64,000 bases of DNA from assembly GCF_008086165.1 (NCBI RefSeq), contig NZ_VSKL01000001.1, positions 744,001 through 808,000 on the forward strand. Reading direction: 5' to 3'. This document shows, one piece after another, positions 13,892 to 62,101 of the stretch (position 1 is the first letter of the stretch; each line of letters starts with the position of its first letter). The notes beneath the pieces are model-generated. The model was not told where the DNA came from, did no database searches, and worked only from the letters and a program-made list of their open reading frames with translations. Source of the DNA: Algorimicrobium algoritergicola. GTDB lineage: Bacteria > Bacteroidota > Bacteroidia > Flavobacteriales > Flavobacteriaceae. Both the position numbers and the translations under genes were made by a program.

Positions 13892-14449
13892 TTAATCGTT
13901 ATAAGTTTCTATAATTATTCTATTATCGACTAATTCAACTAGTTTACTTATAACCTCTTTATCATAATTTTGAGTTTCCGCTCCAAAAATCACTTTTTTA
14001 ATTTTAATACTTATATAATCTTGTTTTTCAGTAATAATTCGATACTCTTCTTCGTATTTCCATTCACTAAGTTTATTTAAAAATACTGATTTTATTTCAT
14101 CAGCTTTTAGAGGAAGATTTTTAAAAGAAGCTAATCCATTATATTCAACTTTGTCAATTATATATTCCGATTTATCTATTTCAAATCCTATGGCTATTCC
14201 TCTATGACCATTTGCATAATGTGACCACATTAAATGACTTTTATAATCCTCTGAAAATGAACAGACACTTAAATGTTTTTCTTTATTAGGATTTAAACGG
14301 ACTCTTTTTGATTCCTCAAAATTATCACTAAAGAATTGTCCTTCGAAATTGTCATTCAAATTTCTAAAACTTGATGAATATAAACGTTGATTTAAAAAAA
14401 TGTCCAGAATATATTTATAATTTTTTAAATCTCTGAATTTATAGTACAT
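13892..14449 (-). CDS. DUF2971 domain protein
   Basis: This 185-residue protein of unknown function matches the DUF2971 pattern: an N-terminal MYYKFRDL with a short helical lead, then CSFSEDYKSHLMWSHYANGHRGIAIGFEID, and EEYRIITE near residue 140. Proteins of this family are scattered across genomes and are often accessory genes; the activity is not established. The coding sequence appears more AT-rich than its neighbours. It is bracketed by tandem repeats on one side and a 19-bp palindrome on the other, within a patch bounded by dinB 3'-end repeats. This suggests it arrived by transfer. Confidence 0.78.
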   Translation of the reverse strand: MYYKFRDLKNYKYILDIFLNQRLYSSSFRNLNDNFEGQFFSDNFEESKRVRLNPNKEKHLSVCSFSEDYKSHLMWSHYANGHRGIAIGFEIDKSEYIIDKVEYNGLASFKNLPLKADEIKSVFLNKLSEWKYEEEYRIITEKQDYISIKIKKVIFGAETQNYDKEVISKLVELVDNRIIIETYND

Positions 14450-14494
14450 ACTGGATGTTTTTTGCCAACGCTATAATATGAAATCGTTTTAATG

Positions 14495-14513
14495 GTTTAT
14501 AACAGTTATAAAC
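14495..14513. repeat. 19-bp perfect palindrome upstream of DUF2971
   Basis: GTTTATAAC (14495-14503) and GTTATAAAC (14505-14513) are perfect inverted arms around a single A. It lies 46 bp upstream of the DUF2971 start and 42 bp past the dinB stop. It could be an operator for DUF2971 or an end of the inserted segment. Confidence 0.55.
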
Positions 14514-14554
14514 GAAATTCGGGTTTTTATGTGAGCAAATAAGCTCCCAAAAAA

Positions 14555-15658
14555 CTAAAAAGCAAATTTCAATTGCACACTAACCGCCTTTTTTTCTTCT
14601 GGTTTTTTCGTTTTTTTATCAGTGTTGAGGTTGGATAATGAAATCCCTAAAAGCCGTACCGAATTTTGCATGCCTTCCTGATATAACAAGTCTTTAGCTG
14701 TTTCTAAAATCACGCAGGCATCACTTACAAAATACGGCAAAGTTTTACTGCGCGTTTGCATCGTGAAATCGCTATATTTTATTTTTAAAGTGATGGTTTT
14801 TCCAGCCACATCGCTTTTTATTAAACGGCGAGATACTTCGTCTGCAATATGTTCTAACTTTTCCAACATGAAAATTTCGGATGATAAATTTTCATTAAAA
14901 GTCCGTTCAGCAGCCAAGGATTTCCGAATGCGATTTGGTTTCACTTCACTGGTATGAATCCCACGAACCACATGGTAATAAAAGCGGCCCGATTTTCCGA
15001 AATGTGAATCTAAATACTCTATGGTTTTCGACTTTAAATCGGTTCCCGTAAAAATACCAAGCTGATACATTTTTTCGGCAGTTACTTTCCCAACGCCATA
15101 AAATTTCCGAATATCCAACGCTTCTAAAAAGGGTAAAACATCTTCAGGATTTACCGTTTTCTGGCCATTTGGTTTGTTGTAATCACTGGCAATTTTTGCA
15201 ATAAATTTATTGATGGAAATTCCGGCGGAAGCTGTTAATCCGACTTCATTAAAAATACGCGTTCGGATTTCTTGGGCTATTAAGCTCGCACTGGGATTCC
15301 CTTTTTTATTTTCGGTAACGTCCAGATACGCTTCATCTAAAGACAAAGGTTCCACCAAATCTGTATAATCGTAAAATATGTTCCGAACCTGTTTAGAAAT
15401 TTCATGATACCGATCAAAACGTGTTTTAGCAAAAATGAGTTCAGGGCAAAGGCGCCTAGCTTGAACACCGCTCATAGCACTGCGAACACCAAATTTACGA
15501 GCTTCGTAACTGGCTGCACTAACCACACCACGATTACCAGAACCACCAACAGCCAATGGTTTTCCTTTTAATTCAGGATTATCCATTTGCTCAACAGACG
15601 CATAAAAGGCGTCCATATCCACATGAATAATTTTTCTAATGGGAAATGTGTCTGGCAT
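14555..15658 (-). CDS. dinB: DNA polymerase IV (DinB, Y family)
   Basis: This is an error-prone translesion polymerase. Family marks are HVDMDAFYASVEQMDNPEL at the N terminus, the palm acids in PLSLDEAYLDVTEN, the helix-hairpin-helix GVGKVTAEKMYQLGI, and the little-finger domain. The C-terminal SVQLKFAF is a beta-clamp binding peptide. At 367 aa it is normal. The last ~39 bases are mirrored by a second copy at 13578-13616. It diverges from the NAD(P)-binding protein gene over a ~40 bp gap. Confidence 0.95.
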   Translation of the reverse strand: MPDTFPIRKIIHVDMDAFYASVEQMDNPELKGKPLAVGGSGNRGVVSAASYEARKFGVRSAMSGVQARRLCPELIFAKTRFDRYHEISKQVRNIFYDYTDLVEPLSLDEAYLDVTENKKGNPSASLIAQEIRTRIFNEVGLTASAGISINKFIAKIASDYNKPNGQKTVNPEDVLPFLEALDIRKFYGVGKVTAEKMYQLGIFTGTDLKSKTIEYLDSHFGKSGRFYYHVVRGIHTSEVKPNRIRKSLAAERTFNENLSSEIFMLEKLEHIADEVSRRLIKSDVAGKTITLKIKYSDFTMQTRSKTLPYFVSDACVILETAKDLLYQEGMQNSVRLLGISLSNLNTDKKTKKPEEKKAVSVQLKFAF

Positions 15659-51020: not shown

Positions 51021-52892
51021 ATGAAGAACTTTTTTTCCCATCTTAAAGGTGATGCTTTTGGAGGTATTACAGCGGGTATTGTAGCATTACCATTAGCGTT
51101 AGCATTTGGAGTGTCATCTGGTCTTGGTCCAAGTGCAGGACTTTATGGTGCTATATTTTTAGCTTTTTTTGCCGCTCTTTTCGGAGGTACAAATACGCAA
51201 ATTTCTGGGCCAACAGCACCAATGACAGCTGTAAGTATGGTACTTATCGCAGGATTATTGGCTATTCATGAAGGTGATGTAAGTAAATCTCTACCCATTA
51301 TTTTAGCAGTTTTTCTTTTAGCTGGATTAATGCAAGTCGGTTTAGGAATATTTGGCTTCGGAAAATATATAAAGTATATTCCATATCCTGTAGTGTCTGG
51401 TTTTATGACGGCTATTGGTCTGATTATTATAATAACACAAATTCTTCCAGCCGTTGGTTATTATCCTGGACAAGATGAAGAATTAATTGAAAAGCATATG
51501 CCACATGCAGAAGAAATGCTTTTAAATGATATTTTAAAGGATGAAGCTGGTGAGGGTATTTTAGTGCTTGAAAATTTTAAAGAAACCATAAATCGAGCTG
51601 AAAAAATTACACTAGCTGATATGAAAAGTGAGGCTTCTATATTAGCGGCAAACTCGGCTTCTGGTGCATTAGGCTCGTTAAAAGCAATCCCAAGGGCGTT
51701 ACAAAACATAAAATGGTTAGAATTTTTATTAGCACTTGGAACCATTCTTATTATTTATGGATTTAAACGAATAACAACAGCCATACCAAGTACGTTAGTA
51801 GCATTAGTGATAGTCTCCGGAATTGCCATGGGGTTTAATTTGGGATATACCCCAATTCAAAATATACCTGATGGATTTCCAATGCCCAACTTTGGAATAT
51901 TTACCGAATTTGATTTTGGAAACCTAATGCCTTATTTCTTCACAGCTTTTACATTAGCGCTATTAGGTTCTATTGATTCTTTATTAACTAGTGTTGTGGC
52001 GGATAATGTAACCAAAACAAAACACAAACCTAATAAAGAACTAATAGGCCAAGGTATTGGTAATAGTATTGCTGCTATATTTGGAGGCTTACCAGGTGCA
52101 GGTGCAACAATTAGAACGGTTGTAAATATTAATGCTGGAGGAAAAACAAGATTGTCCGGGATGATTGCAGGCGTATTTCTTTTAGGTATTCTTTTAATAC
52201 CAGGATTACCTGGTTTAGCTTCACAAATACCAGCCGCAGTATTAGCAGGAATATTAATTACAGTTGGTTTTGGAGTTATGGATTATAAAGGGTTAAAAGC
52301 TATTCCAGCACTTCCTAAAGATATTAAAATTGGCCCTGTTAAATTAAGTTCAGAAGTATTAATTATGCTTGTAGTGTTATTACTGTCTACTTTCTGGAAT
52401 TTAGTTTATGCTGTAGGAATCGGATTGATAATTGCATCGTTATTATTTATGAAAAAAATAGGTGATTTAACCGCACAAAGATCAGATGTTAAGTCATTAA
52501 TGAAAGAAAAAGCATGGGATGACGAAATGAGTTTCCCAGAGAAGTTAAAAGAAGAAGTCTTTATCAAGCATTTAAAAGGTCCTTTATTTTTTGGATCTAC
52601 AAGCGATTTCCAAGGTTTAGCCGATCAAATCCCATCAACGGCAAAAACAGTCATTATTCGCTTAGGCCGCATGCAGTACATGGATCAATCAGGATTGTAC
52701 GCGATGGAGGATGTACTTCACGATTTAAATAAAAATAAAATTACCGTTTTATTTGTTGGTTTATTAAAACAACCGAGATACATGATGGAACGCATTGATA
52801 TTATTCCAGATTTAATTCCCAAAGAACACATCTTTAAAACCTTCACAGAGTGTACGCAATGGATTAAAGAAAATGTAAAAGACGATTATTAA
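51021..52892 (+). CDS. SulP family anion transporter (second copy, with loop insertion)
   Basis: The 623-residue SulP protein has AGIVALPLALAFGVSSGLGPSAGLYGA, GGLPGAGATIRTVVNINAGGKTR and a C-terminal STAS domain with RLGRMQYMDQSGLYAMEDVL. Compared with the first copy it has an extra hydrophilic segment at residues ~150-230 (acidic, rich in Glu and Ala) between membrane helices. It is followed 11 bp later by a second carbonic anhydrase, again suggesting bicarbonate transport. The upstream gap holds an inverted repeat ATTACA/TGTAAT (50988-51006). Confidence 0.9.
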   Translation: MKNFFSHLKGDAFGGITAGIVALPLALAFGVSSGLGPSAGLYGAIFLAFFAALFGGTNTQISGPTAPMTAVSMVLIAGLLAIHEGDVSKSLPIILAVFLLAGLMQVGLGIFGFGKYIKYIPYPVVSGFMTAIGLIIIITQILPAVGYYPGQDEELIEKHMPHAEEMLLNDILKDEAGEGILVLENFKETINRAEKITLADMKSEASILAANSASGALGSLKAIPRALQNIKWLEFLLALGTILIIYGFKRITTAIPSTLVALVIVSGIAMGFNLGYTPIQNIPDGFPMPNFGIFTEFDFGNLMPYFFTAFTLALLGSIDSLLTSVVADNVTKTKHKPNKELIGQGIGNSIAAIFGGLPGAGATIRTVVNINAGGKTRLSGMIAGVFLLGILLIPGLPGLASQIPAAVLAGILITVGFGVMDYKGLKAIPALPKDIKIGPVKLSSEVLIMLVVLLLSTFWNLVYAVGIGLIIASLLFMKKIGDLTAQRSDVKSLMKEKAWDDEMSFPEKLKEEVFIKHLKGPLFFGSTSDFQGLADQIPSTAKTVIIRLGRMQYMDQSGLYAMEDVLHDLNKNKITVLFVGLLKQPRYMMERIDIIPDLIPKEHIFKTFTECTQWIKENVKDDY

Positions 52893-52903
52893 ATAAGCAA
52901 ATT

Positions 52904-53530
52904 ATGGATTTAAAAACAGTTTTCGATAATAATAAAGAGTGGATAAAAAATAAACTGGACGTTGACTCCAACTATTTTGAAGAATTAGGTGATGGGCAAA
53001 ATCCGGAACTTTTATACATAGGATGTTCAGATAGTCGTGTTACAGCTGAAGAATTAATGGGGGCAGCTCCTGGAGAGGTTTTTGTACATAGAAATATTGC
53101 AAACATGGTTATTAGTATAGATTTGAATGTGATGTCTGTTATAAACTATGCCGTAGATCATCTTAAAGTTAAGCACGTTATTGTTTGTGGTCATTTTGGT
53201 TGTGGTGGTGTAAAAGCAGCCATGCAATCGGCAGATTTAGGTATTTTAAATCCGTGGTTACGTAATATTCGTGATGTGTATAGAATTCACAGGAATGAAT
53301 TAAATGCCATTGAAAATGAAGAAAAGCGCTACGATAGGCTTGTAGAACTCAACGTTCAAGAACAGTGTGTTAACTTAATTAAAACGGCAGCTGTACAAAA
53401 AGCGATTCGCGAACGTGGCTTGGAAGTACACGGTTGGGTATTTGATATTCATACCGGAAAATTGATTGATTTAAAAATTGACTTTGTCAAATATCTCGAG
53501 GACATTCGGGAGATTTATCATTTAGATTAA
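52904..53530 (+). CDS. Beta-class carbonic anhydrase (second copy, Can-like)
   Basis: The 208-residue enzyme has zinc ligands in YIGCSDSRVTAEE and CGHFGCGGVKAA, and the helix MDLKTVFDNNKEWIKNKL typical of the Can subgroup. It is clearly different from the first copy. It is coupled to the second SulP gene and ended by a terminator. The two anhydrases belong to different subgroups, so this is not a recent tandem duplication. Confidence 0.94.
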   Translation: MDLKTVFDNNKEWIKNKLDVDSNYFEELGDGQNPELLYIGCSDSRVTAEELMGAAPGEVFVHRNIANMVISIDLNVMSVINYAVDHLKVKHVIVCGHFGCGGVKAAMQSADLGILNPWLRNIRDVYRIHRNELNAIENEEKRYDRLVELNVQEQCVNLIKTAAVQKAIRERGLEVHGWVFDIHTGKLIDLKIDFVKYLEDIREIYHLD

Positions 53531-53597: not shown

Positions 53598-54689
53598 TTA
53601 TTGCAATAAACTGTAAACAAATTCAGGATGACCACGTTCACCATCAGCATTAGTTAATGCTAAAAATTTCAATTTGTATAAATTACCTTCTGTATCGTTA
53701 ACTATGTAAAAAACATTTTCTTTTAAGGAAGGTAAAGTTCCTGGTCCACCACCATTTCTCCAGCTACTTCCAATAGAACGTTTATCGTTACTAAAGTTTG
53801 TATCCACGACATTGGCTAACGTAAAGTTTTCATAACTTAATTCGGTTTCTACATCGGTATCAATCATATAAGCGGTAGCATTTACTTTACTATTATTTAC
53901 TACAAAATCGGTATAACCATAAGCGCCATATCCCGTAATTTCATTAGTAAATACGGTAAAGTTTAAATCCCATTCCGTTTTTGCAGGCTCCACGCTAACT
54001 TCAGATTCTGTATCAAAACTAAAAAACGTAAAATTATAGTTTGTGTTTTTAGAAATAGTAACGGTGTTATGCGTTGTAGCATCTAAATTAGCATATTGTA
54101 AAACGTAATCGTTTCCACTTTTAGTAACACGAATTTTTTTCCAGCCTCTTGGATTGCCTGAAACTTCTACGCTACCATTGGCTGGTGTTCCTGTACTTAC
54201 TTCATAACCTAAATTAATTAAATATACATGGTTTGAAATAGCATCATCAGAAATAGCCTTGATAGCAGTTCCGTCAATATTACCAAAAGGCGCATCTATA
54301 AAGCCAGCACTAACATCTTCAAATGTACCTACTGCCACTTGCGGTTGTAAGGTTTGAACTTCAATTGATGATGCGTTTACAGCATCAATATCTGAAGCTG
54401 AAAGTTCAGCTACTGCCATATAAATAGATCCATTAATGGCAACTCTAAAATCGGAACCTGAATAAAAACCTAAATCCCACGTGTCTCGTTGTACAGATGT
54501 TGTCGTGTTTGTGCTCAAATCAATATAAACTTGATTTGGCTCGTTTGGGCCTCCAATTTGAGGTGCAATTGAAGCGCCTTCAATTACGACGTTAATGGGT
54601 CCTGATGGTGCATTGTCGTCGTCACTACTGCAACTAAAAGTAGTAAATAATGCGACAGTAAATAGCGCAGATAAAAATTTGTTAATCAT
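53598..54689 (-). CDS. HmuY-family heme-binding lipoprotein
   Basis: The 363-residue protein has a lipoprotein signal (FTTFSCSSDDDN) and the HmuY family (PF14064) pattern: YIDLSTNTTTSVQRDTWDLG, FYSGSDFRVAINGS, then WDLNFTVFTNEI with a paired repeat of the fold. HmuY proteins bind heme at the cell surface and pass it to a TonB receptor, which is the upstream gene in the same unit. The S-D-D-D tail supports surface display. The axial heme residues cannot be assigned safely. Confidence 0.87.
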   Translation of the reverse strand: MINKFLSALFTVALFTTFSCSSDDDNAPSGPINVVIEGASIAPQIGGPNEPNQVYIDLSTNTTTSVQRDTWDLGFYSGSDFRVAINGSIYMAVAELSASDIDAVNASSIEVQTLQPQVAVGTFEDVSAGFIDAPFGNIDGTAIKAISDDAISNHVYLINLGYEVSTGTPANGSVEVSGNPRGWKKIRVTKSGNDYVLQYANLDATTHNTVTISKNTNYNFTFFSFDTESEVSVEPAKTEWDLNFTVFTNEITGYGAYGYTDFVVNNSKVNATAYMIDTDVETELSYENFTLANVVDTNFSNDKRSIGSSWRNGGGPGTLPSLKENVFYIVNDTEGNLYKLKFLALTNADGERGHPEFVYSLLQ

Positions 54690-54703
54690 AATATATATAG
54701 TGT

Positions 54704-56842
54704 TTAAAGGTTTAATTTATATAATAGTTTTAAATAAAATGAACGTCCGTAACCCAAGGTTAAATTTGAAGTGTTTCCGCTATGAGTACCTCCATTTGAA
54801 CCAGAATCACGAATATCAACAGACGTAATATCTAGTAAGTTTCTGGCACCAAGAGTTACCTGAAATGTGTTTTTAAAAAATTCTTTTTTTAGGGATGCAT
54901 CAAGCCAGCTGTAGCCATCAACAGTTTGTTGAGTAAAAATGTTATTCCCTTCATTATCTACATCACCATTAGCGGCAAAATCCTTTTGTTCGCCATTATA
55001 CTTATATAACATGGTAAAGTAGGTGTCCCATTTTTGGACATAATATGTAGCGCTTGAATTTATTTGATAGGAGAACAAAAAGTCATCATTGGCATTAACT
55101 TCATCATCTAAAACTCTAGAAACCCCTTGGAGTGTGGCTCCTAAATTAAAAGTCCAATTATCCGCTTTTATACTGTTATTAAGTGTCGCGCCTATTAACT
55201 TATAGCTGTTAATGTTTATATATTGATATTGTAATGGTATTGTATTTACAATAGCCAAATCAATCTTGTCTTGTAATGATATGTAGTTTATTTTGAATTC
55301 ATTAACCAAAGATAGGTCGTTGAACCAGCTCCGTTTTTTCACATTAAAAAAGGCGGTATAACCGTTTTCAGGTTTTAGGTTTTCATTCCCACGAACATCA
55401 TGATTAGAATCTACAAAGTAATAATACAATTCTTCAAAACTTGGTGTTCTATACGAGCTTCCCAGTTCAGCACGTAGTTCAAAGCCATGTTCAAACAAGT
55501 AACGCGCACTTAAAGACCCTAAAAAGTTGGATTTGAAAAGGGAGTTATGGTCGTATCGCATTCCAGGTCTAACGGAAAACTTTTCGTTAAATCGGTATTC
55601 TCCAGAAGCATAACCTGCTAAACTAGATACCGATTGTAGTTTATCCAACTGTGTTTCATTACCCGAAGCCTGCGTATCAAAACCTTCAATATAGCGCAAT
55701 TCGTAACCTAATTGAAAGTTGAATTTATCCGTCTTTATTAAATTATTAACGGCACCATTGGAGAAAAAGACTTTCGTAGATTGGTAGGTTTCATCTATTT
55801 CATTATCTTTTTCTTCGGTAAGAATATAATACGTGAAATCGTTTAAATTCCGTTCTTGCTGTTGGTAAGAAAAGGATGCTTTATAATTCATACCCGATTT
55901 TAATCGGCCTGATAAATTTAAATTATTTACAAACCGATTCGTTTTGTAAATCCTATCGTTTGTTGTTGGATTAATGGTTTGTGAAGCAACATCCGGATTG
56001 GTTCTAACGGATCGATTGTAAAAGTTTAGTTCTTCATTAAAATAATCAAATCGGTAGTTCAAGTTAAAGGCTTCAGACTGATAATTAACTAAAGCATTGG
56101 TGTTTATTTGTGTTTTTGGTAGCCATTCATACCCACGTAAATTATCTGTTCCGTAGTAATCTTTACCTTGCCTTTCACCAAAATAACCAGCAAACTGATT
56201 ACGGTTAAAACCCACTCTAGCAAACCATTTATCATTAATATTGTGAGACACATTTACCAGCTGTATATGGCGTCCTTCATCAAACCAAGTGTACTCATTA
56301 CCTACGGTCTCTTCTTGAATTCCCGTTTGAATTTCCCATTTCCCATCAATTGCTTTTTTGGTGATAATATTAATAACACCAGAAACGGCATTGGCGCCAT
56401 ATTCAACACCCATTGCACCTTCTACAATTTCTATACGCTCAATATCATCTAAATTTATTTGGGTTAAATCAATATTATTTCCAACGCCATTATCACTAAC
56501 TAAAGGAATATTATCAATTAGAATGGTGAAATACTGCTGATCTAATCCAAAAAACGAAATATTAGATTTCCCGGTTTGGGCGCTGGGAAGGATGGTTAAA
56601 TTTAAATTGAAGTTTAATAAATCAGCTATGTTATTAGCCGCCTGACTTTCAATTTGCTGCCTCGTGATTACGGTAACATTATGAACCGATTTTTTAATGG
56701 ACTGTGGATTATACTGGCCAGTAATAACCACCTCACTTAATTGTTCTGTATTGGTAGAATCTGTTTCTATTTCTTGAGCAAAAATATACGAACTCAAAAA
56801 AAGCAGAAAAAAAAGTGAAAAGTTATTTTTATTTAGACTCAT
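54704..56842 (-). CDS. TonB-dependent outer membrane receptor (HmuR-like)
   Basis: The 712-residue receptor has a signal peptide (LLFLSSYIFAQ). A plug domain follows (VHNVTVITRQQIESQAANNIADLL, IERIEIVEGAMGVEYGANAVSGVINII), then a beta-barrel with aromatic-rich strands to the C terminus. It starts a minus-strand unit with the HmuY gene, so heme is the likely cargo. It lacks the N-terminal carboxypeptidase-like domain of SusC-type receptors. A promoter and a Fur-like palindrome lie upstream. Confidence 0.9.
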   Translation of the reverse strand: MSLNKNNFSLFFLLFLSSYIFAQEIETDSTNTEQLSEVVITGQYNPQSIKKSVHNVTVITRQQIESQAANNIADLLNFNLNLTILPSAQTGKSNISFFGLDQQYFTILIDNIPLVSDNGVGNNIDLTQINLDDIERIEIVEGAMGVEYGANAVSGVINIITKKAIDGKWEIQTGIQEETVGNEYTWFDEGRHIQLVNVSHNINDKWFARVGFNRNQFAGYFGERQGKDYYGTDNLRGYEWLPKTQINTNALVNYQSEAFNLNYRFDYFNEELNFYNRSVRTNPDVASQTINPTTNDRIYKTNRFVNNLNLSGRLKSGMNYKASFSYQQQERNLNDFTYYILTEEKDNEIDETYQSTKVFFSNGAVNNLIKTDKFNFQLGYELRYIEGFDTQASGNETQLDKLQSVSSLAGYASGEYRFNEKFSVRPGMRYDHNSLFKSNFLGSLSARYLFEHGFELRAELGSSYRTPSFEELYYYFVDSNHDVRGNENLKPENGYTAFFNVKKRSWFNDLSLVNEFKINYISLQDKIDLAIVNTIPLQYQYININSYKLIGATLNNSIKADNWTFNLGATLQGVSRVLDDEVNANDDFLFSYQINSSATYYVQKWDTYFTMLYKYNGEQKDFAANGDVDNEGNNIFTQQTVDGYSWLDASLKKEFFKNTFQVTLGARNLLDITSVDIRDSGSNGGTHSGNTSNLTLGYGRSFYLKLLYKLNL

Positions 56843-56859
56843 TCTTTATAGATTTGCTG

Positions 56860-56871: not shown

Positions 56872-56896
56872 CTTATTTTAATTCAATCTAAATAAG
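56872..56896. promoter_or_regulatory. Candidate Fur-type operator between divergent iron genes
   Basis: CTTATTT (56872-56878) and AAATAAG (56890-56896) form an inverted repeat spanning 25 bp in an AT-rich setting (TTCAATCTAAATAAG). It overlaps the upstream promoter region of the TonB receptor and precedes the divergent DUF6607 operon, the expected place for iron-dependent control. The match to a Fur site is judged by eye. Confidence 0.5.
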
Positions 56897-56944: not shown

Positions 56945-57850
56945 ATGAAACAAGTAGCCTTAACCACACTTTTATTAGTAGCATTATCCACACAAATTTA
57001 TGCGCAATCCAAACTGCAACAGGATCAAAAAGCCATCAAAGACATGTGTGGTTGTTATGAAGTAAACTTTAATTTTGCGGAAACTTTTGAGTATTCTGGT
57101 GATTCAACTTACATGCCATCGGCAACAAAACATGATAAAGGAATAGAGTGGGTAGAGCTGGTTCAAGATGATGCCGATAAAATTGTCATGCAGCATTTAT
57201 TGATTGTTGGATCTAAAGAGCGTCCATATATTGTAAAGCATTGGCGACAAGATTGGGAGTTTGAAAACACCAATTTATATGTTTATGACCATGATAACAA
57301 GTGGAACTTTGTAACACTTCCAAAAGAAGACGTGGCTGGTCAATGGACACAGCGCGTTTTTCAAGTTGATGATAGTCCGCGTTATGAAGGATCTGCCACT
57401 TGGGTTCATGTCGATGGAAAAAGTTATTGGGAAAATACCACAACAGCACCTTTAGCAAGACGAGAATATACAACACGTAGTGATTATAATGTAATGAATA
57501 GAACCAACAGACATGAAATTGTTGCCAACGGTTGGATTCATGATCAGGATAACGATAAGGTTATTCGTGAAACTGGAAAGGAAGACGTGATTTTGGCTCA
57601 AGAAAAAGGACATAATACCTACGTGAAAATTGACGATAGCGAATGTAAAGCGGCTCAAGACTATTGGGCAGAGAACAAGGAGAAATGGGTAATTGTTAGG
57701 GCTAAATGGGATGCTGTTTTTGCACGAAACACAGATTTAATGTTGGAAGAAAAAGTAGATAACAAAACCATGTTTAAATATTTATTGGATGATGAGAATT
57801 ATAAAACATCTGAAACTATCAACCCAATTATTGATGCATTTGTAAAATAA
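56945..57850 (+). CDS. DUF6607 family exported protein
   Basis: The 301-residue protein has a signal peptide (LLLVALSTQIYAQ). A body rich in Trp and aromatic residues includes MCGCYEVNFNFAETFEY, VKHWRQDWEFENTNLYVYDHDNKW and RREYTTRSDYNVMNRTNRHEI. I recognise it as DUF6607, usually found near TonB receptors and iron genes in Bacteroidota. The CGC motif near the N terminus could bind metal or heme, but this is not shown. It starts the plus-strand iron unit. Confidence 0.78.
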   Translation: MKQVALTTLLLVALSTQIYAQSKLQQDQKAIKDMCGCYEVNFNFAETFEYSGDSTYMPSATKHDKGIEWVELVQDDADKIVMQHLLIVGSKERPYIVKHWRQDWEFENTNLYVYDHDNKWNFVTLPKEDVAGQWTQRVFQVDDSPRYEGSATWVHVDGKSYWENTTTAPLARREYTTRSDYNVMNRTNRHEIVANGWIHDQDNDKVIRETGKEDVILAQEKGHNTYVKIDDSECKAAQDYWAENKEKWVIVRAKWDAVFARNTDLMLEEKVDNKTMFKYLLDDENYKTSETINPIIDAFVK

Positions 57851-57857
57851 GAATACT

Positions 57858-59333
57858 ATGAAAAGTAAAACAATAATATCCGCCTTAATCCTTTTTTTTA
57901 GCCTTCAAAGCTTTGGGCAAGATAATGTGTTTTTGAATCGCGATTTTTGGAGCAACAAACCATCTGTAGAAGATGTTGATGCCCAAATAAAAGCTGGAAA
58001 TGATATAACGCAAGCCAATAGTAATAATTTTGATGCCGTTGTGTTTGCTATTTTGCAAGATGCACCCAACAAAACCATTCATTACATTCAATCCTACAAT
58101 GGAAATGACGTCAATAAATTAACCCATGACGGACGAACCTATATTTTTTGGGCCGCTTACAAAGGTAATACCGAAATCATGCAATACCTTTTAAAGAAAG
58201 GTGCCAAAACGGATATAACCGATGATAAAGGAAATACTATTTTAAATTTTGCAGCTGGTTCAGGACAAACCAATACCAAAGTATATGATATGTGTTTGGC
58301 ACATGGTGCCAATTTAAAATCGGACCTTACACCGTCAGGAGCCAATGCACTACTACTTGCTGCACCTTTTGATACGGATTTTAAACTCATCAATTATTTT
58401 ACATCTAAAGGCCTCGATATTCAAAGTGTGGACTCCAATGGGAATGGCGTTTTTAATTATGTTGCTAAAACTGGTAACAAGGAATTATTAAATCAATTAG
58501 TAGAGAAAGGTGTTAAAGGAAATAACCAAGCCTTTATTTTTGCTGCCCAAGGAACCCGGAGCCACACCAATGATTTAGACTTTTACACCTATTTAGAAGA
58601 AGTAGGATTAAACCCCAATACGTCTTCAAAAGAAGGCGAAACACCTTTGCATATTTTAGCGGCTCGTAGTAAAGATCTAGACTTGATACGCTATTTTATA
58701 AAAAAAGGAGTTGATGTAAATCAAGCGGATGCTGATGGAAATACAGCCTTCTTAAACGCAGCTTACCAAAATAATTTGGAAGTCATTACCATTCTTAACA
58801 AACAGGTAAAAGATATTAATGCGGTGAACAAGAAAGGTGAATCTGCATTAGCCTTAGCTCTTAAAAACAATACCTTTCAGGTGGTTGATTTCCTAATAGA
58901 AAACAAAGCAGAAGTTTCGGTTATTGATGCCAATGGAAACAATATTATAGCGTATGTTATGGAATCCTTTACTGTTAATAATCAAAAGGAGTTTGAACAA
59001 AAAATAGCCTTAATTAAAGCTAATGGAATAGATATTACCAAACCTCAAAAAAATGGAAATACGTTATTTCATTTAGCCGTTTTACAAAATAACTTGGATT
59101 TAGTAAAATGGGTAAACACCTATCCTGTTAATGTAAATGCAAAAAATAGTGAAGGTAATACAGCTCTGCATTTGGCTGCTATGCGTGCTAAAAATTCAGA
59201 CATATTAAAATATTTAGTTTCAATAGGCGCTAAAACGGATGCGGTAACAGAATTTGATGAAACCGCTTTCGATTTGGCATCTGAAAATGAGATTCTAAAA
59301 TCCAGTAAAAGCAATTTAGATTTTTTGAAGTAG
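57858..59333 (+). CDS. Exported ankyrin repeat protein
   Basis: The 491-residue protein has a signal peptide (LILFFSLQSFGQ) followed by about ten or more ankyrin repeats. Examples are GRTYIFWAAYKGNTEIMQYLL, GETPLHILAARSKDLDLIRYF, GNTAFLNAAYQNNLEVI, GNTLFHLAVLQNNLDLVKW and GNTALHLAAMRAKNSDILKYL. Ankyrin repeats bind proteins, so a scaffold or inhibitor role in the periplasm is likely. It begins 7 bp after DUF6607 and is followed by an unusual hairpin before the DUF2271 gene. Confidence 0.88.
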   Translation: MKSKTIISALILFFSLQSFGQDNVFLNRDFWSNKPSVEDVDAQIKAGNDITQANSNNFDAVVFAILQDAPNKTIHYIQSYNGNDVNKLTHDGRTYIFWAAYKGNTEIMQYLLKKGAKTDITDDKGNTILNFAAGSGQTNTKVYDMCLAHGANLKSDLTPSGANALLLAAPFDTDFKLINYFTSKGLDIQSVDSNGNGVFNYVAKTGNKELLNQLVEKGVKGNNQAFIFAAQGTRSHTNDLDFYTYLEEVGLNPNTSSKEGETPLHILAARSKDLDLIRYFIKKGVDVNQADADGNTAFLNAAYQNNLEVITILNKQVKDINAVNKKGESALALALKNNTFQVVDFLIENKAEVSVIDANGNNIIAYVMESFTVNNQKEFEQKIALIKANGIDITKPQKNGNTLFHLAVLQNNLDLVKWVNTYPVNVNAKNSEGNTALHLAAMRAKNSDILKYLVSIGAKTDAVTEFDETAFDLASENEILKSSKSNLDFLK

Positions 59334-59392: not shown

Positions 59393-59875
59393 ATGAAAAT
59401 AAAACATATAATACTTGTTAGTTTTTTAACCTTTGGATTATTATCCTTTACAACCATTGCAGATTCTACCAAATACAAATGCATGATTCAAATGACGAAT
59501 TATTCAGGTGAAGCCGCGTATGTCGTTGTTTCCCTAATCAATCCAGATGGCGAATACGAAAAAACCCTATACGTACAAGGAGATGATAGCGAATGGTATC
59601 ATGATATGACGGACTGGTGGAAATTCTATGGAAAAAAACGCAGCAATATAGATGCCATTACTGGAGCAACTATTGCTGGAGGCGCCAGAACTATTAGTGT
59701 TATTGATATTGAAGATTCTAAAATTGACGCTGGTTATAGCATCCGATTTGAAACCGCCGTTGAAGATCAGGAATATTACACCAAAGATGTGGAATTTCCA
59801 TTGACTTCTGAAACTGTAAAAAGCAAGAAAGAAGGCAGCGGATTTATTCGTTATGTTCGGATGATGCCAAATTAA
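59393..59875 (+). CDS. DUF2271 protein with possible flavinylation motif
   Basis: The 160-residue protein has a signal peptide (LVSFLTFGLLSFTTIA) and a beta-sandwich DUF2271 domain (KCMIQMTNYSGEAAYVVVSL, WYHDMTDWWKFYG). Residues 87-93 read DAITGAT, similar to the ApbE flavin-transfer consensus D-x-x-[S/T]-G-A-T found in FMN-binding domains. It would then carry a covalently bound flavin in the periplasm and accept electrons from the PepSY flavoprotein encoded 33 bp downstream. Covalent flavin is inference; no apbE lies in this window. Confidence 0.8.
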   Translation: MKIKHIILVSFLTFGLLSFTTIADSTKYKCMIQMTNYSGEAAYVVVSLINPDGEYEKTLYVQGDDSEWYHDMTDWWKFYGKKRSNIDAITGATIAGGARTISVIDIEDSKIDAGYSIRFETAVEDQEYYTKDVEFPLTSETVKSKKEGSGFIRYVRMMPN

Positions 59876-59908: not shown

Positions 59909-62101
59909 ATGACCATTTCAATTTGGAGATACAGTCACCTTGCCTTGGCCGTGTCTTCTTTTGTTTTTATTCTTTTAGCCTCCATAACAGGAATTATTTT
60001 GGCGTTTCAGCCTATTTCTGAACAAATTCAACCTTTTAAATCGGCTGATTTTGAAACCATAACGGTAGCCGAAACTATTTCCACATTAAAGCAAACCTAT
60101 CCGGAAATTATAGATGTTCAAATTGATGCTAATGATTTTGTTTTAGCTTCTGTAATTACCCATGAAGGCGACAGTAAAACTGGTTATATCAATCCGAAAA
60201 ACGCTGAATTTCTTGGCGATAAAATAGATGTTTCACCATTTTTTCAATGGGTTACTAACTTCCATAGATCCTTATTTTTAAAAAGCACAGGACGCTTTTT
60301 TGTTGGTTTTTGTTCGTTCCTTTTATTTTTAATTGCGGTTTCGGGTTCTATTCTAATTGTAAAAAGACAACGTAGTTTTAAAAAGTTCTTTTCAAAAATT
60401 ATCAATGAGAACTTTAATCAATATTGGCATATTGTTTTAGGACGTTTGTCTTTAATTCCCATAATTATTATCACCATTACAGGTGTGTATTTGTCTTTAG
60501 AGAAATTTGATTTACTACCAACTTCCAATACCACACACAATATTGATTTTGATGCTATTTCAGCTACACCAGAATTACCGGTTGAAGATTTCGCTGTGTT
60601 TAAAAACACACAGCTCTCTGAAGTTCGCGCCATAGAATTTCCGTTTTCTGATGATGTGGAAGATTATTACACCCTAGCATTAACTAATCAAGAAGTAGTA
60701 ATTAATCAATTTACAGGTGAAATTTTAAGTAGAATTAAGTATCCGCCTGTTACTTTTTATTCCGAGTTAAGCCTGAATTTACATACGGGAAAAGGCAGTA
60801 TTTTATGGTCTGTTATTTTAGCGCTTGCTACGGCAAACATCCTGTTTTTCATTTATTCAGGATTTGCTATGACGGTAAAACGCCGAAAATCTAAACTAAA
60901 AAATAAGTATAAAAAGGATGCATGTGAGTTTGTTATTCTAGTAGGATCAGAAAACGGAAGTACCTTACCGTTTGCTAATGTTTTACATGAGCAACTTTTA
61001 GAAGCTGGTAAAAAATCTTACATTACAGAATTGAATAATTATACAACTTTTAATAAGGCAGAACATCTAATTATTCTAACCGCAACCTATGGTCAAGGAG
61101 ATCCACCAACCAATGGGACTAAATTTTTAGAGCTTTTAAAAACAACCCAACAGCCACGTACCTTACAATATTCCGTCGTTGGTTTTGGTTCTTATGCCTA
61201 TGCTGATTTTTGCAAATTTGCCTTGGATGTAGATAAAGCTATGCAAACCGAATTCAAGCAATTTTTACCTGTTTTTACTATTAATGATAAATCGGTTGAT
61301 GCTTTTAAACAATGGGCAAATTCGTGGACGGAAAAAATACATGTTCCTGTTCAAATTGTTGAAGAAAAATTAGTTGCTAAACCAAAATTAACCAATTCAC
61401 TGACGGTTGTTCACAAAACAGACGTAGCGGATAATCCAGATCAAACATTTATACTGACACTGAAAGCCAAACAAGCCAAACGGTTTGTTTCTGGTGATTT
61501 GCTTGCCGTTTATCCAGCTAATGATTATCGGGAACGTCTATATTCTATTGGAAAAGTAGATGGACATATTCAATTAAGTGTGAAATATTACGACAATGGA
61601 TTAGGTTCTAATTTTCTAAACGGTTTTAGTTTGGGCAGTACCTTTAAAGCACGCATTATTAATAATGCGGCTTTTCATTTTCCTAAAAAAGCACCACATG
61701 TCGTGATGATTGCTAATGGAACTGGTATTGCTCCATTTTTAGGAATGTTAAATGCAAACACCAAACTAAAAACAGTGCATTTGTATTTCGGATTACGGAC
61801 CAACGAATCTTACAAATTATACAAATCGCAAATAGAAGGCTATTTAAATACTCAAAAATTAGCCCGTTTGGAATTAGCACTATCACGCGAAACCAATAAT
61901 AATTATGTTCAAAATTTACTTTTAAGAGATTCTGAATTTATGGCAGCTACGCTAAAAAACAAAGGTGTTTTAATGTTATGTGGCTCATTAGCTATGCAAA
62001 ACGATGTGCTCAAAACCTTGGAGCTTATTTGTGAAAAACACCAATTAGAAGGGCTGCATATCTATCAACAAAACGGACAAATTCAATCGGATTGCTATTA
62101 A
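59909..62101 (+). CDS. PepSY transmembrane protein fused to flavodoxin and FAD/NADPH reductase
   Basis: The 730-residue fusion has an N-terminal PepSY-TM module with four helices (LALAVSSFVFILLASITGIIL, FFVGFCSFLLFLIAVSGSILI, LGRLSLIPIIIITITGVYL, VILALATANILFFIYSGFA). A flavodoxin domain follows (LTATYGQGDPPTNG, residues ~345-475), then a CysJ-like FAD and NAD(P)H part (YSIGKVDGHIQLSVK, MIANGTGIAPFLGML, LMLCGSLAM). It likely moves electrons from cytosolic NADPH across the membrane for iron reduction or heme use. It ends the iron operon and overlaps the cvpA end by 4 bp. Confidence 0.88.
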   Translation: MTISIWRYSHLALAVSSFVFILLASITGIILAFQPISEQIQPFKSADFETITVAETISTLKQTYPEIIDVQIDANDFVLASVITHEGDSKTGYINPKNAEFLGDKIDVSPFFQWVTNFHRSLFLKSTGRFFVGFCSFLLFLIAVSGSILIVKRQRSFKKFFSKIINENFNQYWHIVLGRLSLIPIIIITITGVYLSLEKFDLLPTSNTTHNIDFDAISATPELPVEDFAVFKNTQLSEVRAIEFPFSDDVEDYYTLALTNQEVVINQFTGEILSRIKYPPVTFYSELSLNLHTGKGSILWSVILALATANILFFIYSGFAMTVKRRKSKLKNKYKKDACEFVILVGSENGSTLPFANVLHEQLLEAGKKSYITELNNYTTFNKAEHLIILTATYGQGDPPTNGTKFLELLKTTQQPRTLQYSVVGFGSYAYADFCKFALDVDKAMQTEFKQFLPVFTINDKSVDAFKQWANSWTEKIHVPVQIVEEKLVAKPKLTNSLTVVHKTDVADNPDQTFILTLKAKQAKRFVSGDLLAVYPANDYRERLYSIGKVDGHIQLSVKYYDNGLGSNFLNGFSLGSTFKARIINNAAFHFPKKAPHVVMIANGTGIAPFLGMLNANTKLKTVHLYFGLRTNESYKLYKSQIEGYLNTQKLARLELALSRETNNNYVQNLLLRDSEFMAATLKNKGVLMLCGSLAMQNDVLKTLELICEKHQLEGLHIYQQNGQIQSDCY

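Follow-up and report, generated by a model that had tools for sequence, protein, structure and literature searches.

A Predicted Flavinylated DUF2271 Protein and Its PepSY Reductase next to a Putative Haem-Capture Module in Algorimicrobium algoritergicola

Introduction

Where would electrons go from an exported-looking DUF2271 protein that carries a flavinylation-like motif and is encoded next to a membrane reductase? The question is raised by a locus in a 64,000-nucleotide stretch of the genome of the marine bacterium Algorimicrobium algoritergicola (contig NZ_VSKL01000001.1, positions 744,001 to 808,000), here called the window. The general system to which the locus belongs is not new. In one DUF2271 protein the cognate ApbE attaches flavin at [ST]GA[ST], and replacement of the Thr by Ala abolishes the modification (PMC8238504, Meheust et al. 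2021). Of the 3220 PepSY-like clusters counted in the same paper, 2833 contained DUF2271 and 231 a TonB receptor; an NAD-binding domain was recorded for 1077 PepSY genes, and iron reduction and assimilation were proposed. The work on flavinylated PepSY proteins was extended by PMC11334425, PMC11870441 and PMC7190382, and in Caulobacter insertions in such genes lower fitness under chelator (PMC11870441). The flavinylated DUF2271-PepSY electron-transfer system was thus already published in 2021, and the core of the window's locus is a member of it. A further paper, on xenosiderophore use with PepSY in Caulobacter, is listed as PMC12424826.

Results

The locus and its parts

The following features were assigned within the window.

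53598 to 54689, - strand: HmuY-family protein, a candidate haem-binding lipoprotein, encoded second in the divergent receptor unit (PF14064, E 1.8e-29).
54704 to 56842, - strand: TonB-dependent outer-membrane receptor of haem/iron type (Plug and beta-barrel domains).
56829 to 56851, no strand: copy 1 of a palindromic operator-like sequence, TTATTTAGACTCATTCTTTATAG, with 4 mismatches to TTATTTAGAATCATTCTAAATAA, overlapping the receptor start codon (56840-56842).
56873 to 56895, no strand: copy 2 of the palindromic operator-like sequence, TTATTTTAATTCAATCTAAATAA, with 4 mismatches to the scanned version.
56945 to 57850, + strand: DUF6607 protein (Pfam PF20311), a RhuH-type haemophore homologue by its matches to 8xjc.
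57858 to 59333, + strand: ankyrin-repeat protein, exported-looking, the usual companion of DUF2271 (Pfam Ank models; AlphaFold pLDDT 93.8).
59393 to 59875, + strand: DUF2271 protein of 160 aa, exported-looking, predicted substrate of ApbE flavinylation (PF10029, E 1.4e-42, cut-off passed).
59651 to 59671, + strand: DAITGAT site, residues 87-93 of the DUF2271 protein; the codon at 59669-59671 encodes Thr93, the predicted FMN-bearing residue.
59909 to 62101, + strand: reductase fusion of PepSY_TM, flavodoxin (FMN), FAD and NAD(P) domains (Pfam).
Codons starting at 59936 (His10), 60263 (His119), 60428 (His174) and 60782 (His292), + strand: histidines of the PepSY fusion conserved in 39 of 39 sequences.

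Four genes follow one another on the + strand in the order DUF6607, ankyrin, DUF2271 and PepSY fusion, and the genes for the TonB receptor and the HmuY-like protein run divergently from them. The original prediction had described a DAITGAT motif in a DUF2271 protein and a PepSY-flavoreductase directly downstream, and both descriptions agreed with the reading frames and Pfam domains listed above; the two genes of the opposite strand were not mentioned in it. The N-terminus of the DUF2271 protein has a lysine-rich start and a hydrophobic stretch, as judged by eye. The nearest named relative of the protein was that of Bizionia echini DSM 23925 (locus L097, which has the same gene order), 96% identical, among the best 80 of at least 560 relatives, from which records of the own genome were perhaps omitted. 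Transporter-like and carbonic-anhydrase-like genes, named by eye, adjoin the receptor unit at 51021-53530 and are retained in several relatives.

Conservation of the DAITGAT site

The motif was compared in 126 non-redundant DUF2271 proteins derived from 135 genes. These genes came in three sets: 45 from the window together with 120 evenly sampled genomes of the family; 80 named loci nearest to the query (best 80 of at least 560), a set weighted towards close relatives; and 10 from a phylum sample, for which 12 regions had been fetched. Two kinds of matches were excluded before the motif was counted, namely one partial match below the cut-off (G096) and three loci (L077, L215 and L216) in which DUF2271 lies within an ORF of 507-522 aa and was missed by phmmer with the window protein.

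The residue predicted to bear the flavin, which we take to be the last of the D-x-x-[S/T]-G-A-T motif and hence Thr93 here, was Thr in 118 proteins and Ser in 8. Loss of the motif Thr among homologues had been named at the outset as evidence against flavinylation; a hydroxyl residue was retained at this position in 126 of 126. Gly91 was likewise invariant (126/126). Position 90 was Ser or Thr in 122 of the 126 (Ala in two, Val in two), position 92 was Ala in 112, Glu in 12 and Pro in 2, and position 87 was Asp in all but 6 proteins (120 of 126), which had Ser. The complete pattern D..[ST]GA[ST] was present in 106 of the 126 proteins, and [ST]GA[ST] in 112, the latter number being obtained by subtraction. 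When the DUF2271 protein was shuffled, the complete pattern arose in 270 of 200,000 shuffles, and among the 69 stop-to-stop frames of at least 100 aa in the window (21,964 residues) the DAITGAT site was the sole match.

Fourteen of the 126 proteins had Glu or Pro in place of the motif Ala, and four of these 14 were also without Ser or Thr at position 90. Either the motif tolerates change, or some DUF2271 members are unflavinylated. Eleven of the 14 variants stood in loci with both ankyrin and PepSY genes, which indicates that the exact [ST]GA[ST] is unnecessary for retention of the operon; the others were in L072, without ankyrin and PepSY, and in L080 and L081, without ankyrin. The loci with GET for GAT that kept the ankyrin and PepSY genes were L058, L062, L074, L075, L078, L116, L131, L145, L152, L162 and L166. 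Some of the GET-type proteins have Ala or Val at the first S/T.

The identity of a family member as an ApbE substrate (PMC8238504) and the unbroken presence of a hydroxyl residue at position 93 both favour a flavinylation site, as had been proposed. We consider it very probable that the DUF2271 protein of the window is covalently flavinylated. When DUF2271 was searched against the PDB, no solved structure matched with an E-value of 0.1 or lower.

The PepSY fusion and the electron chain

Pfam searches of the ORF at 59909-62101 gave PepSY_TM (PF03929, E 1.2e-34), Flavodoxin_1 and NAD_binding_1 over the cut-off, and FAD_binding_6 below it. The best PDB matches of the cytosolic part were NADPH-cytochrome P450 reductases. 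Four histidines, His10, His119, His174 and His292, were invariant in the family sample, in all 39 PepSY fusions within set limits of score and length. A profile built from 19 membrane parts had only one PDB match at E 1 or better, the PepSY protein 7abw (E 4.6e-5), for which two haem sites are described, with a pair of conserved histidines at each (PMC11334425). The four invariant histidines are, by analogy, probable haem ligands of the PepSY part. The chain that had been suggested originally, leading from NADPH over FAD/FMN and membrane haems to a periplasmic flavin, is thus supported through homology by the domains, the conserved histidines and the match to 7abw, and we regard it as likely. 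The direction of the electron flow is read from the same homologies and would be outwards.

DUF6607, the HmuY-like protein and the receptor

The AlphaFold model of the DUF6607 protein (42 sequences, pLDDT 87.8) was matched by Foldseek to 8xjc with E 1.5e-30 and 46% identity, and phmmer matched the two sequences with E 1.7e-87. The structure 8xjc is the haemophore RhuH of Riemerella anatipestifer, which binds haem with a Kd of 3.44e-11 M and requires His96 for it (PMC11967795). According to the same paper, RhuH grips haem chiefly via coordination of the iron by His96, and it is secreted in vesicles. In the phmmer alignment, His96, Arg143, Tyr144, Arg170, Arg183 and Gln198 of RhuH correspond to H99, R146, Y147, R173, R186 and Q201 of the DUF6607 protein. 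All six were invariant in the 42 DUF6607 sequences, H99 being the equivalent of the haem ligand and the other five those of the propionate contacts. By homology, DUF6607 is a haemophore homologue of RhuH type and is predicted to bind haem. DUF6607 and the ankyrin protein had both been put down as accessory parts; for DUF6607 this no longer holds in view of the match to 8xjc, while the ankyrin protein is better described as a near-constant companion of DUF2271 (120 of 126 loci).

The HmuY domain (PF14064) scored 103.3 bits against a cut-off of 27, and the protein had a weak match (E 0.06) to a solved putative haem-binding protein, 6eu8. For the receptor, the best NCBIfam model was TonB-hemin with E 7.6e-27, yet with 94 bits against a cut-off of 316.85. 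With these assignments, DUF6607, the divergent TonB receptor and the HmuY-like lipoprotein make a putative haem-capture module.

Gene neighbourhood of DUF2271

Homologues of the ankyrin, PepSY, DUF6607 and HmuY genes were found around 120, 122, 93 and 53 of the 126 DUF2271 genes, respectively. At the 45 loci of the family sample, an ankyrin gene lay directly before DUF2271 in 40, and PepSY was present in 42, DUF6607 in 29 and HmuY in 18. The 80 loci of the named set (best of at least 560) had the ankyrin gene directly before DUF2271 in all 80, PepSY in 79, DUF6607 in 72 and HmuY in 39. In the phylum regions, the 10 recognised DUF2271 loci comprised nine with ankyrin (the tenth begins at a contig end) and ten with PepSY, and none with DUF6607 or HmuY. 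Among the 120 family genomes, DUF2271 was over the cut-off in 44, DUF6607 was present in 48 and both in 34 (Fisher p 3.5e-10); in 29 of these 34 the two genes were at most 6 kb apart. In L061 and L072, DUF2271 follows directly after DUF6607 without an ankyrin gene, with PepSY in the former and without it in the latter.

DUF6607 was absent from 33 of the 126 DUF2271 loci. At some of these the trio of ankyrin, DUF2271 and PepSY genes stands behind a XusA-like receptor and a lipoprotein, at others behind another TonB receptor. A profile of nine of the lipoproteins matched the solved XusB, 9hqe, with E 6.5e-6; Pfam returned no family at E 0.001 for two of them. At 16 of the 126 loci only the trio was seen, and the locus scan named no XusA/XusB-like or other TonB receptor partner there. 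Standing behind differing receptors, the trio resembles an exchangeable reductase cartridge. The ankyrin protein is constant across haem and siderophore contexts, and for this reason it more likely belongs to the reductase than carries haem. The best Foldseek matches of its AlphaFold model (pLDDT 93.8) were ankyrin-repeat folds. An injected effector or a part of a defence system was also considered for the ankyrin protein and rejected, since the NCBIfam matches to such models were all below the cut-off and reflect the repeats.

The promoter palindrome and iron control

The promoter shared by the receptor and DUF6607 contains two copies, at 56829 and 56873, of a 23-bp palindrome, TTATTTAGAATNATTCTAAATAA, and these were the only sites in the window with at most 5 mismatches. 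Five shuffles of the window gave no site with at most 4 mismatches and at most one with at most 5. Upstream of DUF6607, 101 of 109 regions had a site with at most 4 mismatches and 94 of 109 had at least two sites with at most 5. Like all match counts of the palindrome, these depend on a consensus that was composed after inspection of the window and of the Fur-box matches upstream of DUF6607. Enrichment of 8-mers is independent of the consensus: TATTTAGA, for example, was expected in 4.8 of the 108 regions and occurred in 100, a figure to which coding conservation may contribute since copy 1 overlaps the first codons of the receptor. Sites with at most 4 mismatches were present in 105 of 126 stretches (up to 6.5 kb) upstream of DUF2271, compared with 16 of 119 stretches (3-6.5 kb) downstream of PepSY. 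In regions of about 200 bp directly upstream of single genes, a site was found for none of 127 DUF2271, 126 PepSY and 26 CvpA genes, for 9 of 123 ankyrin genes, for 7 of 11 XusA-like genes and for 1 of 9 receptors of the other type.

In the whole genome there were eight sites with at most 3 mismatches against none for the reversed control; the two sites of the window fall beyond this limit. One of the genomic sites precedes FeoB by about 250 bp. Others neighbour genes for a TonB receptor, a NUBPL-type iron-sulphur ATPase, a succinate dehydrogenase membrane subunit (just below the Pfam cut-off), a haem c protein and NqrA, and one lies at the 3' side of a ferritin-like gene, so named on our own reading. 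At the remaining site, a porin-like gene heads a same-strand run of FMN_bind, two unassigned ORFs, a thioredoxin-like gene, ApbE and DUF3570. The palindrome is taken for a putative Fur-type box of the group to which the host belongs.

The published Fur box of Riemerella, GATAATGATAATCATTATC (PMC7976709), differs from the palindrome and was rejected as the operator: it had no match in the window at 3 mismatches or fewer, and upstream of DUF6607 its best matches barely exceeded those in shuffles, the other 23-bp palindrome being strongly enriched instead. In Riemerella, a run of genes was induced in iron-depleted medium, comprising the receptor B739_0173 (log2 3.31), the hypothetical 0174 (3.64), the ankyrin protein 0175 (2.41), the predicted periplasmic 0176 (3.06) and a 'nitric oxide synthase', 0177 (1.05) (PMC5429918). 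Fur represses the receptor gene B739_0173 and binds its promoter (PMC7976709). Judged by gene order and annotation, the run B739_0173-0177 would be a homologous operon and lends independent support to iron control, which we infer for the locus of the window as well.

ApbE and other genes of the genome

No apbE was found in the DUF2271 cluster; the genome has two ApbE matches, on contigs C26 and C23, while the window lies on C11. The copy on C26 is part of a same-strand run directly behind a palindrome site. The second is about 7 kb behind the palindrome site of NqrA, on the same strand, and adjoins a gene read as NqrF. Co-occurrence with ApbE was discarded as a test, being uninformative when 118 of the 120 family genomes have ApbE. 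The run on C26 (L233:8190-14044) consists of a porin-like gene, FMN_bind with SGAT near its end, a thioredoxin-like gene, ApbE and DUF3570 behind one palindrome site; it is apparently a second, separate flavinylation cluster with the same operator. Two ORFs, at L233:10552-10854 and 14096-14800, flank the thioredoxin-like/ApbE/DUF3570 part and share about 70 nearly identical residues after different leaders, as a local duplication or a mobile piece would.

FeoB was found by the genome search, and there was no match in the genome to haem oxygenase (PF01126) or DyP (PF04261). FecCD had three matches over the cut-off; two are weak, and the sole strong one lies by a gene set which we read as cobalamin-like.

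Discussion

The locus shares with the clusters of Meheust and colleagues a PepSY_TM protein, a DUF2271 protein with [ST]GA[ST], and an NAD-binding domain on the PepSY protein, and with 231 of them a TonB receptor. It differs from them in its ankyrin gene, in the flavodoxin within the fusion and in the RhuH/HmuY module that shares its promoter, as well as in having neither apbE nor DUF4198, a frequent partner there. The genome as a whole had no match to DUF4198, which occurs in 24 of the 120 family genomes with none of its 26 listed places near any DUF2271. The words ankyrin and hemin are absent from the main text of PMC8238504. A single bidirectional promoter of 122 bp serves rhuH and rhuR-rhuA in Riemerella (PMC11967795). 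The window has the same arrangement, its DUF6607/RhuH homologue running divergently from the genes for a TonB receptor and a further haem protein across a short common promoter; in the window the reductase trio directly follows the rhuH homologue. The main text of PMC11967795 does not contain the words reductase, ankyrin and operon.

As in XusABC of Bacteroides (PMC13142918), a TonB receptor occurs together with a PepSY inner-membrane reductase, and there is a lipoprotein at the receptor. However, no XusB-like protein was seen at the window locus, where the receptor partner is HmuY-like, and the accessible description of XusC, the B. theta PepSY protein described as an iron-siderophore reductase, is without DUF2271, ankyrin or a fused diflavin reductase (PMC13142918). 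The Hfp system of Flavobacterium psychrophilum offers another parallel in its HmuY-like HfpY, which binds haem and works with the TonB receptor HfpR; unlike in the window, a DoxX gene lies between the receptor and the HmuY-like gene (PMC9331221). Neighbours of HfpY have iron-responsive transcripts and a putative role in transmembrane electron transfer (PMC9331221). In a literature search with subscription papers mostly outside its range, no paper joining ankyrin or RhuH with DUF2271 was found among the matches listed, nor one naming DUF6607 or one joining HmuY, PepSY and Flavobacter. The pairing with a haem-capture module and an ankyrin partner looks new.

The reading that we favour, with some reserve, is that the four genes of the + strand, together with the receptor pair running the other way, make up a single iron-controlled locus for uptake and reduction, in which NADPH would drive the reduction of imported ferric or haem iron in the periplasm. 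The HmuY-like protein, the TonB receptor and the RhuH-type DUF6607 would capture haem for import. The cytosolic part of the PepSY fusion would pass electrons from NADPH to FAD and on to FMN, and they would cross the membrane via haem groups held by the four invariant histidines to reach FMN on Thr93 of the periplasmic DUF2271, a flavin which ApbE would have attached in trans. The reduced flavin would in turn reduce imported iron, either ferric iron or that of haem. For the ankyrin protein, the most likely role is that of an adaptor in the periplasm which would dock DUF2271 to the membrane reductase or to the acceptor. That iron assimilation is the purpose of the locus we hold with good confidence; that haem is the main acceptor is doubtful. 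Several observations count against this uptake-and-reduce reading: the haem module does not always accompany the trio, DUF6607 being missing from 33 of the 126 loci and from all ten recognised phylum loci; the motif Ala is replaced in 14 of the 126 DUF2271 proteins; reduction alone would not free iron from haem; apbE is absent from the cluster and a solved relative of DUF2271 from the PDB matches; and the Riemerella Fur box is absent from the window.

The same loci without DUF6607 lead to an alternative that we take seriously while thinking it somewhat less probable, in which the trio would be a general reductase of ferric siderophores or ferric iron for uptake by FeoB, serving any TonB receptor, and its adjacency to haem genes would reflect common iron control and convenient operon building. 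It fits the trios behind XusA-like receptors with a XusB-matching lipoprotein (9hqe) or behind other TonB receptors, the lack of DUF6607 at the ten recognised phylum loci, the description of XusC as an iron-siderophore reductase (PMC13142918), and the presence of FeoB with a palindrome some 250 bp before it. The proportion of DUF2271 loci with a RhuH-type gene in the evenly drawn family sample (29/45) is high for a neutral neighbour and weighs the other way. Linkage to RhuH, HmuY and receptor genes speaks for a haem-specific role, which we think unlikely: reduced flavin would reduce haem iron on the RhuH-type haemophore, or feed a step that opens the haem, with release in the periplasm. The chief hold of RhuH on haem is the bond between His96 and the iron (PMC11967795), and we reason that reduction could weaken this grip; the missing matches to PF01126 and PF04261, and the lone strong FecCD with its cobalamin-like company, also agree with a haem-specific role. 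RhuH, however, is secreted in vesicles (PMC11967795) and may never meet a periplasmic reductase, and the trio does without DUF6607 at a quarter or so of the loci (33/126).

Reduction of haem by itself leaves the iron within the porphyrin. A haem version of the mechanism would for that reason need a further step, or would serve to unload the haemophore. The remaining alternative concerns DUF2271 itself, which could be an unflavinylated beta-sandwich protein binding haem or iron, with the motif retained for the fold. The GET (12) and GPT (2) proteins among the 126 keep Gly91 and the hydroxyl residue and not the Ala, and many other positions are equally conserved, which speaks for this alternative. 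A member of the family has been directly demonstrated to be flavinylated (PMC8238504), position 93 holds a hydroxyl residue throughout, and the genome has two apbE genes, one of them following a palindrome site within a run of genes on one strand; in the face of these we consider an unflavinylated DUF2271 improbable.

A wider proposal goes beyond the uptake-and-reduce reading and is put forward as speculation of rather low probability. The ankyrin protein, the flavinylated DUF2271 and the PepSY diflavin reductase would be a flavobacterial, iron-controlled cartridge plugged behind differing capture modules; in its haem version it would reduce haem on or from the RhuH-type haemophore in the periplasm, with the ankyrin protein as docking partner and the flavin-attaching enzyme switched in trans by the same regulator. 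If true, the haem version would amount to a haem reductase that works with covalent flavin and is docked by an ankyrin protein. The locus itself connects three lines of work, on flavinylated PepSY systems, on the RhuH haemophore and on siderophore uptake by receptor and lipoprotein. The GET-type DUF2271 proteins are natural variants for probing the specificity of ApbE. A periplasmic ankyrin protein would have a candidate role, in electron transfer, and the release of iron from imported haem or siderophores without the two common haem-opening families would become a question for four neighbouring genes.
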